This document shows, piece by piece, positions 49,816 to 51,427 of a DNA stretch of 64,000 nt (the stretch's first letter is position 1; the number at the start of each line of letters is the position of its first letter). The DNA lies in NCBI GenBank assembly GCA_022841915.1, contig JALHQN010000001.1, positions 62,001 through 126,000 on the forward strand, in the 5' to 3' direction. The stretch is from Burkholderiales bacterium. Lineage in GTDB: Bacteria; Pseudomonadota; Gammaproteobacteria; Burkholderiales; WYBJ01. The position numbers and the translations under genes were made by a program. Below the pieces are notes generated by a model. That model saw only the letters and a program-made list of their open reading frames with translations, did not search any database and was not told the DNA's origin.

Positions 49816-50850
49816 ATGGAGCTTGCTTCTCGCCGACACATGGCGCCGGACATTTCCGGTGCGATCGAACTTTGCTACACCAATGGCTGGACCGACGGGC
49901 TGCCCGTCGTGCCCCCGACAGCCGACCGTGTCGAAGCCATGCTCAAGGCCGGGGGCCTCGAGCCGAAAGAGCAGCTGGCCTATATCGAGAACCGACAGGT
50001 CACGGTCACCGCCGAGAAGGTCGCCGTCAACGCGGTCATGGCGGGCTGCAAACCCGAATACATGCCGGTCATCGCCGCCACGGTGCAGGCGCTCGCCGAT
50101 CCCCTCTACGGATATCACGGCCCGGCGACCAGCACCTCCGGCTCCGCGGTCTTCATGGTGGTCAACGGTCCCATCGCGCGCGAACTCGACATCAATTGCG
50201 GCCACAACCTGTTTGCCCCGGGATGGCGCGCCAATGCGACGATGGGTCGAGCCATCCGCCTGGTGATGCGCAACGTGATCGGCAGCATCCCGGGCGAACT
50301 CGACCAAAGCTGTCTGGGTCACGGCGGCAAGTACTCGTTCTGCATCGCAGAGAACGAAGCGCAGAGCCCCTGGCCCGCGTTTCACACCACACGCGGCTTC
50401 AAGGCCGAGCAGAACGTGGTCACCATCTTCGCCGCCCTCGCACCGCACCAGTTTTCCAATCGCTTGAGCGCGGACCCGGAAGGCGTGCTCGACACCGCCT
50501 GCGCACACATGAAGATCTCGGCGGGCGCAGGTCGCCAGCAACAGCACGTGATCGTCTTCGGCGGCGAACACTCGGTCATCTTCGAGCGCGCCGGCTGGTC
50601 GCGCGAGCAGGTACAGCAGTACTGCTTCGAGCACTCGCAGTCCACGGTGGCGGAGCTCAAGCGTGCCCATGTGATTCCGGGAGACCTCGAGCCCGCAGAC
50701 GAGCACACGATGTTTCCGCTGGTACAGACGCCGACGGACTTCCTGGTCATTTCCGCCGGCGGACAAGCCGGGGTGCAGTCGGCATTCATTCCCGGCTGGG
50801 GCAGCAAGAACGGGTCACAAAGCGTGAGCAGGGAGATTCGCCGCCCCTGA
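49816..50850 (+). CDS. Conserved protein of unknown function, partner of the UGSC selenoprotein
   Basis: The 344-residue protein starts at ATG 49816 with GAGGA upstream; the longer frame to 49666 is rejected. It opens with CYTNGWTDGLPVVPPTADRV, a signature I associate from memory with genes beside UGSC selenoproteins, and then has TAEKVAVNAVMAGCKPEYMPV, TSTSGSAVFMVVNGPIAREL, GSIPGELDQSCLGHGGKYSF and VISAGGQAGVQSAFIP. Cys occur at 20, 78, 128, 166, 176, 229 and 270; none forms an obvious CxxC. No signal peptide or membrane segment is seen. The next gene follows after 40 nt, so the pair is probably co-transcribed and works together, perhaps in a redox reaction, which is inference. Confidence 0.72.
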   Translation: MELASRRHMAPDISGAIELCYTNGWTDGLPVVPPTADRVEAMLKAGGLEPKEQLAYIENRQVTVTAEKVAVNAVMAGCKPEYMPVIAATVQALADPLYGYHGPATSTSGSAVFMVVNGPIARELDINCGHNLFAPGWRANATMGRAIRLVMRNVIGSIPGELDQSCLGHGGKYSFCIAENEAQSPWPAFHTTRGFKAEQNVVTIFAALAPHQFSNRLSADPEGVLDTACAHMKISAGAGRQQQHVIVFGGEHSVIFERAGWSREQVQQYCFEHSQSTVAELKRAHVIPGDLEPADEHTMFPLVQTPTDFLVISAGGQAGVQSAFIPGWGSKNGSQSVSREIRRP

Positions 50851-50890: not shown

Positions 50891-51427
50891 ATGGCAGTGC
50901 AGATATTGGATCCAACGACGGAGGTTTCCGGCCGGCGCATCAATTACGCCGCCCGACCGGAGTCGTTCGCCGGCCTGCGCATCGGCCTGGTGGACAACAC
51001 CAAGCACAACGCCGATCAGGTGCTGCTGCGCCTGGCAGCCATTCTGGAGAACGAGCACGGCGCCAAGACGCACATCATCCGTCGCAAGAAGAGCGCCGGG
51101 GCGGCGCCTCATGCCGAGATCATCGAAGAGTACAAGGGCGCCTGCGATATCATCATCGCCGGCGTCGGCGATTGAGGGTCATGCAGCTCGGGCAGTGTGC
51201 TCGACAGTATCGTATTCGAACAGCAAGGCATTCCCTCCGCGTCCATCATCACCGACGTGTTCCAGGCCACCGGCCGGGCCATGGCCCGCAGCTGGGGGTT
51301 GCCGAATTTCCGTTTCGTGATGATGCCTCATCCGATCGCCAACCTGAACGAGGAACAGCTCGATCAGCGCGCACGTGAGATCGCTCCCAAGGTGATCGAG
51401 CTGTTGCGGGAAGGTCAAGCCGACTGA
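50891..51427 (+). CDS. UGSC-family selenoprotein (UGA 51173-51175 read as selenocysteine)
   Basis: The gene is one 178-residue protein if the in-frame UGA at codon 95 is read as selenocysteine. It then gives ...DIIIAGVGD-Sec-GSCSSGSVLD, a Sec-x-x-Cys redox motif (Sec95, Cys98), the UGSC signature of a family known from computational selenoproteome surveys. Both sides of the UGA share frame and homology-like content: RIGLVDNTKHNADQVLLRLA before, and SASIITDVFQATGRAMARSWG and FVMMPHPIANL after. A SECIS-like hairpin follows the UGA at the right distance (51188-51204). ATG 50891 has AAGGAG upstream. It follows its partner gene by 40 nt. A split call at 51175 and a GTG at 51197 is an artefact. Function unknown; a redox enzyme is likely. 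Confidence 0.88.
51188..51204 (+). promoter_or_regulatory. Bacterial SECIS-like stem-loop
   Basis: TCGGGCA (51188-51194) pairs with TGCTCGA (51198-51204), with one G-U pair, around the loop GTG (51195-51197). The loop starts 20 nt after the UGA and its first base is G, both fitting the known bacterial SECIS pattern of loop distance about 16-37 nt. It lies inside the coding region, as expected for bacteria. Confidence 0.75.

Follow-up and report, generated by a model that had tools for sequence, protein, structure and literature searches.

A UGSC-family selenoprotein gene and its conserved partner gene: a candidate two-part selenoenzyme related to GrdB and PrdB

A UGSC-family gene read through an in-frame UGA

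The stretch of DNA analyzed here (the window) comprises 64,000 nucleotides and corresponds to C1:62001-126000, that is, to positions 62001-126000 of contig C1 in a Burkholderiales genome of 6.2 Mb. The features relevant to this study all lie on its plus strand:

49816..50850, plus strand: partner gene, 344 aa, ending 40 nt before the start of the UGSC gene; 20 copies in the genome
50880..50885, plus strand: Shine-Dalgarno AAGGAG of the UGSC gene, read from the sequence
50891..51427, plus strand: predicted UGSC-family selenoprotein gene, framed with TGA as selenocysteine (Sec); NF041046 and PF24696; AlphaFold2 pLDDT 91.3
51173..51175, plus strand: UGA as predicted Sec codon, U95 of D-U-G-S-C; TGA in 19 of 19 matches in the genome, TGC or TGT in Cys homologues
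51188..51204, plus strand: bacterial SECIS-type hairpin, 7 bp with a GTG loop, from position and fold; conserved family-wide

The UGSC gene runs from an ATG at 50891 to a terminator TGA at 51425-51427 and encodes 178 amino acids with Sec at position 95; the protein reads GVGD-U-GSCSS around this residue, and the D-U-G-S-C motif occupies residues 94-98. An earlier note on this DNA had joined two plus-strand frames through the in-frame TGA to obtain D-Sec-G-S-C, and its coordinates, frame and motif proved exact. Its assignment of the product to the UGSC family was borne out by two profiles above their cut-offs, namely the NCBIfam equivalog NF041046 (150.2 bits, cut-off 125) and Pfam PF24696 (198.3 bits, cut-off 25; residues 4-173). 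The note had also proposed looking for homology across the UGA, Cys homologues included; both matches run through the UGA, and TGC or TGT aligns there in the Cys homologues. As the note had stated, standard gene calling truncates this gene, a clear case of an intact gene cut in two. The family is known from NF041046 and PF24696 and as the 'UGSC-containing protein' in the parts consulted of Zhang and Gladyshev (2007/2008), and the predicted selenoprotein is a new member of this family already in print. Genome-wide recoding of UGA was considered and ruled out: both the UGSC gene and the partner gene end in TGA, and recoding is therefore context-dependent.

A hairpin conserved over the family

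The hairpin that the note had described, with a 7-bp stem starting 13 nt and a loop starting 20 nt after the UGA, is present as claimed, its arms lying at 51188-51194 and 51198-51204 around the GTG loop at 51195-51197. For the window gene alone this hairpin is not above chance (fold z -0.46), 13% of 500 synonymous-codon shuffles folding equally well, and no Rfam profile matched within the window at the gathering threshold. Over the family, the SECIS-type hairpin is far above chance. In 97 distinct UGA-containing segments, drawn from the same genome, its order and 80 other loci, a mean of 6.89 of 8 stem pairs was kept against 4.67 +/- 0.15 (maximum 5.15) in 200 synonymous-codon shuffles, and the fold energy was -10.4 against -5.35 +/- 0.29 kcal/mol in 60 shuffles. 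Nine of the 97 Sec genes kept fewer than six pairs; these were two U-G-S-S forms and seven forms fused to the partner, six of the latter being from this genome, where they account for 6 of the 19 UGSC copies, and in these nine genes the SECIS is only putative. The loop reads GTN in 89 of the 97 Sec genes and GCN in 7 of 8 Cys genes; the eight Cys homologues kept 2, 3, 3, 3, 5, 5, 6 and 7 stem pairs, and their hairpins are thus mostly weaker than those of the Sec genes.

The genome carries the machinery for Sec insertion

The note had assumed that the genome can insert Sec, and the search for the machinery agreed, with tRNA-Sec, selA, selB and selD all found. The tRNA-Sec lies at C1:637593 (75 bits; reported by ARAGORN as tRNA-SeC with anticodon tca), and profile searches placed selB (434 bits) and selA (574 bits) on the same contig as the window, the order being selA, selB, a TrxB-like gene and tRNA-Sec within about 5 kb. 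The selD gene was found on contig 28 (424 bits). The TrxB-like gene between selB and tRNA-Sec (L009 3480-4382; C1:636621-637496) carries a CADC motif. SelD is a predicted selenoprotein itself, with an in-frame TGA in a GGGUGCK motif (L017 1531-1533, C28). Another predicted selenoprotein is encoded by a PrdB-like gene (L077 1396-2616; C3, match 349683-350045) with an in-frame TGA in SPV-U-PNC; its match to TIGR04483 (E 1.3e-23) is under the equivalog cut-off. The genome thus holds at least 21 predicted selenoproteins, i.e., 19 UGSC proteins, SelD and the PrdB-like protein. The biggest bacterial selenoproteomes named in the part consulted of a 2026 review comprise 57 and 63 genes (PMC13188914), so the total here is no record, and it is the 19 copies of one family that stand out.

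These 19 UGSC matches were returned by a PF24696 search of the genome; each has one in-frame TGA, and all 19 TGA, that of the window gene included, occupy a single codon column of the alignment. Three genus mates (G005, G055 and G100) also carry many UGSC matches; with 21 candidates scored, their counts are 17, 21 and 21, all lower bounds. Among 150 genomes of the order, 17 contained a UGSC match, 16 of them above the cut-off. The order-wide matches number at least 142, a lower bound with 21 candidates scored in some genomes; 135 of these contain exactly one TGA, 7 contain none and 0 contain TAA or TAG, the placement of the TGA on the motif codon being confirmed by alignment for 35 matches. 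The note had named homologues with a stop at this site as evidence against its reading; none with a stop other than TGA was among these matches. In a tree of 108 UGSC sequences, built without the window's own sequence and with 18 'Cys' rows that are 17 Cys forms and one Met form (L212), 18 of the genome's copies need six label changes on the best tree, two of them forced by well-supported branches, and the copies are therefore unlike one recent tandem burst. Insertion of Sec at the UGA at 51173-51175 is predicted from these sequence comparisons and is, in our judgment, almost certain.

The UGSC gene is paired with a conserved partner gene

For the partner gene, an ATG behind GAGG was picked by eye as the start. 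Profiles from Pfam and NCBIfam gave no family name for its product, no close relative was found on viral contigs, and sequence searches against solved structures yielded no convincing match for UGSC or the partner. The partner family (about 350 aa) has 20 copies in this genome. A UGSC gene lies on the same strand within 1.5 kb of 18 of these partner genes, the window pair included, and none lies within 1.5 kb of the other two. Moreover, 8 of the 19 UGSC genes of the genome are fused, with the partner as the C-terminal half of the same frame. Apart from weak matches in L101 and L125, the other neighbors of the window pair are kept only in L099, the nearest relative, on a contig that breaks off directly behind the partner.

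A scan of genome contigs with the partner alignment found at least 585 loci, of which the best 80 were kept. The best 80 of these at least 585 loci come from Burkholderiales, Rokubacteria, Dehalococcoidia/SAR202, Acidobacteria, Nitrospinae, Poribacteria, Mycobacterium, Natrialba and others, and in them 77 of 87 partner genes have a UGSC domain within 1.5 kb on the same strand (61 pairs with the partner first and 16 with UGSC first; median gap 103 nt). The 10 unpaired partner genes comprise four at contig ends, five from Poribacteria and one from Rokubacteria. Loci with a partner and no UGSC in the fetched stretch are the Poribacteria loci L127, L128, L141, L146 and L150 together with L167; selB was present in all five of the genomes checked, which are those of these loci other than L146. 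On a plasmid stretch from Haladaptatus (L215) a partner was likewise present and no UGSC was found. The six unpaired partner genes away from contig ends and the two unpaired copies in this genome suggest that the partner may also act without UGSC.

The signatures of the partner family are DGLP..PPT, NAVMAGC.PEY, VNGP and ANATIGRA.RL. A pyruvoyl-type partner as in PrdA is conceivable; the conserved partner Cys, being Ala or Gly in a few clades, is not invariant. From the pairing and the fusions, UGSC and partner very probably form one functional unit.

Sec, Cys and other forms of the motif

Near the best 80 of the at least 585 partner loci, 77 UGSC domains were found, 70 with TGA and 7 with TGC at the motif, by a scan that breaks frames at TAA and TAG, so that either codon at the motif would escape it. 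In addition, 16 of 24 plasmid records were opened. The UGSC site in these 16 plasmid stretches reads TGC or TGT in 10 (Arthrobacter, Roseovarius, two Variovorax, Embleya and five haloarchaea), TGA in three (Acidovorax T1 and two Paracoccus) and ATG in two (Sporomusa and Vibrio), and one stretch has no UGSC. On plasmid pFER4 of Paracoccus ferrooxidans (L208), selA, selB, a TGA-containing UGSC gene and the partner are grouped in a segment of about 15 kb, and the UGSC gene is annotated there as two hypothetical proteins.

The selB gene scored above cut-off in 34 of 37 Sec-locus genomes versus 3 of 7 Cys-locus genomes (Fisher p 0.007), a comparison that used 50 of the 80 loci (49 genomes) and took Sec or Cys status from the fetched locus only. 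The three Sec-locus genomes that missed selB comprise one with selB in pieces and two assemblies of less than 2 Mb. Two further forms depart from the motif. In L149 and L152 it reads U-G-S-S, the second Cys being replaced by Ser, and the hairpin scores are weak. Fused UGSC-partner proteins with D-M-G-T-S are encoded on plasmids of Sporomusa termitida (L211 8281-10005) and Vibrio europaeus (L212 6368-8053), in each case with aconitase X and DUF126 genes close by; Met here takes the place of Sec and Ser that of Cys, so that this branch has apparently given up Sec/Cys chemistry.

Thioredoxin genes and catabolic genes around the pairs

Several pairs lie beside genes of the thioredoxin system. In Arthrobacter sp. 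ERGS1:01 the genes form a run trxB-trxA-partner-UGSC at L203 7656-10830, in Roseovarius THAF8 the order is partner-UGSC-trxB, and in Variovorax SRS16 it is trxB-tctC-SDR-partner-UGSC, trxB being the third gene upstream. A TrxB-like gene abuts a fused copy in the genome studied here (L091), another starts 33 nt after UGSC in a Dehalococcoidia locus (L156), another adjoins a Haloterrigena copy (L218), and others lie farther off in L138, L213 and L216. All nine TrxB-like proteins compared, i.e., eight near pairs (without that of L216) and the one after selB, contain CxxC. TrxB-like genes were counted in 1 of 19 UGSC regions of this genome, 2 of the 80 loci, 6 of the 16 plasmid stretches and 0 of 20 control regions of this genome. 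Over the fetched stretches they accompany 6 of 17 Cys loci versus 3 of 84 Sec loci (p 0.0006), a comparison made post hoc, after the Arthrobacter operon had been seen, and with a Cys set that consists mostly of plasmid stretches. Four TrxB-like genes of the genome exceed 220 bits, and only one of them also exceeds the family cut-off; the four include the gene that abuts a fused pair and the one flanked by selB and tRNA-Sec.

The surroundings of the pairs are catabolic in character. TctC receptors account for 19 of 104 UGSC neighbors versus 8 of 117 control genes (p 0.008), where the neighbor set covers 18 regions of this genome without those of the window and L096, the controls are all from the same genome, the genes are those of a simple home-made gene finder, and the Pfam tally was made without 2 of 106 neighbor and 3 of 120 control proteins, all of them long. 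UGSC neighbors in this genome also include enoyl-CoA hydratases, TauD dioxygenases and 2-hydroxyacid dehydrogenases, and several haloarchaeal copies lie among CoA transferases, an amidase and TctC or TRAP receptors. Among the genes recognized around the window pair there was no trxB or tctC. The genome as a whole has at least 150 TctC-family solute receptors, an extreme expansion; 150 of 386 candidates were scored and all of them match.

Fold and kinship to GrdB and PrdB

The AlphaFold2 model of the window UGSC protein (mean pLDDT 91.3) has five strands alternating with five helices, and the model of a natural UGSC-partner fusion reached a mean pLDDT of 91.2 and a pTM of 0.92. For UGSC, Foldseek and VIA returned generic alpha/beta proteins among the matches listed, the best VIA match being 8s7v_H (Z 10.2, 129 residues, 3.3 A) and the next having a Z of 9.2; no thioredoxin was among the 50 fold matches listed per search. 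The fold search with the fused model also returned generic matches, filled by the UGSC half, so that the partner domain was barely covered.

Profile comparison pointed to a more specific relationship. UGSC compared with a first small set of GrdB-like proteins gave an HHalign probability of 76%, and the UGSC profile compared with 27 GrdB/PrdB-family proteins gave 92% (E 6e-7, calculated for a single comparison), with Sec aligned on Sec. After the aligned Sec the two families share an E..GIP-type block, and with the full-length set an HP(I/L) block too. By subset, the eight full-length proteins gave 89% and the 19 short PrdB-like proteins 46%; 30 column-shuffled controls, made from the 19 short sequences and not from all 27, gave at most 1.1%. 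GrdB-family genes were present in 32 of the 37 selB-bearing genomes searched, and all 27 that were extracted have an in-frame UGA at the motif. This search covered 37 of 42 selB-bearing genomes, leaving out three with Cys loci as well as G462 and G463, and 27 of 30 new GrdB loci were used, L241, L243 and L244 being dropped as their matches end before the motif. Pfam PF07355 gave no match to the window UGSC protein even at E 10, its sole Pfam match being UGSC; the relationship is therefore one of kinship to GrdB/PrdB and not of membership. On the profile evidence, UGSC is probably a distant relative of GrdB/PrdB.

A proposed mechanism and its alternatives

In glycine reductase and D-proline reductase, the substrate is attacked by the selenol of GrdB or PrdB, after which thioredoxin regenerates the enzyme. 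By analogy with these reductases, we consider it fairly likely that a SelB/SECIS-directed selenoprotein and its partner form a two-part, thioredoxin-dependent, GrdB/PrdB-related selenoenzyme for small catabolic substrates. SelB and the SECIS would direct Sec to UGA 51173, and the resulting UGSC protein would work with the product of the upstream gene as one two-part enzyme with a joint active site, in which the partner domain may bind or present a small catabolic substrate. Through its selenolate, Sec95 would attack this substrate, and a bond would be cleaved reductively; Cys98 would then resolve the intermediate, leaving a selenenylsulfide between Sec95 and Cys98 that thioredoxin and its reductase would reset while supplying the electrons. 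The many paralogs would serve different substrates. For the step of thioredoxin-dependent reductive catalysis by UGSC and partner, taken on its own, we lean only slightly in its favor. The substrates, we infer, would be small organic acids or compounds like them, and a class of reaction is now indicated for the UGSC family.

Among the alternatives, the pair might be a non-redox enzyme (a lyase, isomerase or hydratase) in which Sec or Cys serves as nucleophile or metal ligand. The Met-G-T-S forms beside aconitase X genes, the U-G-S-S forms of L149 and L152, which lack the second thiol, and neighbors such as enoyl-CoA hydratases and CoA transferases would suit such an enzyme; on the other hand, Cys98 is near-invariant (at least 90% over 65 sequences), thioredoxin reductase genes recur beside the pairs, and the homology is to the reductases GrdB and PrdB, so that we regard a non-redox enzyme as unlikely. 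It is quite improbable, in our view, that UGSC serves as a general thiol oxidoreductase or antioxidant protein of the thioredoxin-like kind. In the confident model five strands alternate with five helices, an order that seems unlike that of the thioredoxin fold; likewise, 19 copies tied to one partner domain amid varied catabolic neighbors are unlike housekeeping thiol exchange. The Sec-x-x-Cys motif and the linkage to trxB and trxA speak for a thiol oxidoreductase, as do one sentence in the part consulted of the 2026 review, which groups UGSC with proteins of Trx-like fold (PMC13188914), and the thioredoxin-like fold suggested for UGSC in the consulted part of a 2008 paper (PMC2398784). Finally, that the UGA is a true stop in a pseudogene or between two short genes, as the gene's own TGA terminator and the insignificant hairpin of the window gene alone might suggest, is rejected as next to impossible, given TGA at one codon in 19 of 19 copies in the genome, one TGA in 135 of at least 142 order matches with 0 TAA/TAG, Cys homologues that read on through the site, and a complete Sec machinery.

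A two-part selenoenzyme remains our preferred reading, and its widest form is put forward tentatively. It is possible that the pairs represent an unrecognized class of two-part selenoenzymes that are of GrdB/PrdB ancestry, depend on thioredoxin and spread horizontally. Within single genomes this class would have diversified into numerous catabolic reductases, each specific for its substrate, in Betaproteobacteria, Rokubacteria and SAR202-type Chloroflexi, with a Cys form in haloarchaea and some actinobacteria, and much of it would be hidden by gene callers that stop at UGA. If true, selenium-dependent catabolic enzymes would form a large and easily mis-annotated set in many environmental bacteria. 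Together, the pairing and fusions, the kinship to GrdB/PrdB and the thioredoxin neighbors offer a testable hypothesis for a family to which the consulted parts of reviews assign no function. Cultured bacteria with natural Cys forms, one of which belongs to a trxB-trxA-partner-UGSC run, provide ready experimental systems.

Comparison with known systems

The window gene resembles the known members of the UGSC family in its D-U-G-S-C motif, in the hairpin after the UGA and in having Cys homologues. It differs in the scale on which it is multiplied: the part consulted of a 2016 survey lists 33 UGSC selenoproteins in 26 organisms (PMC5029168, Table 3), whereas this genome alone has 19 copies. The consulted portion of the GOS survey (PMC2398784, Figure S1A) noted in 2008 a domain fused to UGSC as 'Unknown_1', and that fusion likewise joins UGSC to a second conserved domain. 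Unknown_1 may or may not be the same as the partner, which matches neither profile library; the fused Unknown_1 is the only such domain mentioned in the prior UGSC literature as far as consulted. The partner pairing was not found described in the consulted parts of PMC2398784, PMC13188914, PMC9312934, PMC7539508 and PMC5029168 or through literature searches. The wider system appears to be a much-multiplied two-part module related to GrdB/PrdB, present also on plasmids, which we did not find described in the literature searched, as far as those sources were consulted.

Compared with GrdB and PrdB, the window UGSC protein differs in having no direct match to PF07355, and the partner is unlike GrdB-like proteins, its comparison with the small GrdB-like set giving an HHalign value of 0.4%. 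As in GrdB/PrdB (PF07355, TIGR04483), the predicted Sec of UGSC stands at the same place and is followed by the E..GIP and HP blocks, and, again as in GrdB/PrdB, a thioredoxin system lies beside some UGSC pairs.
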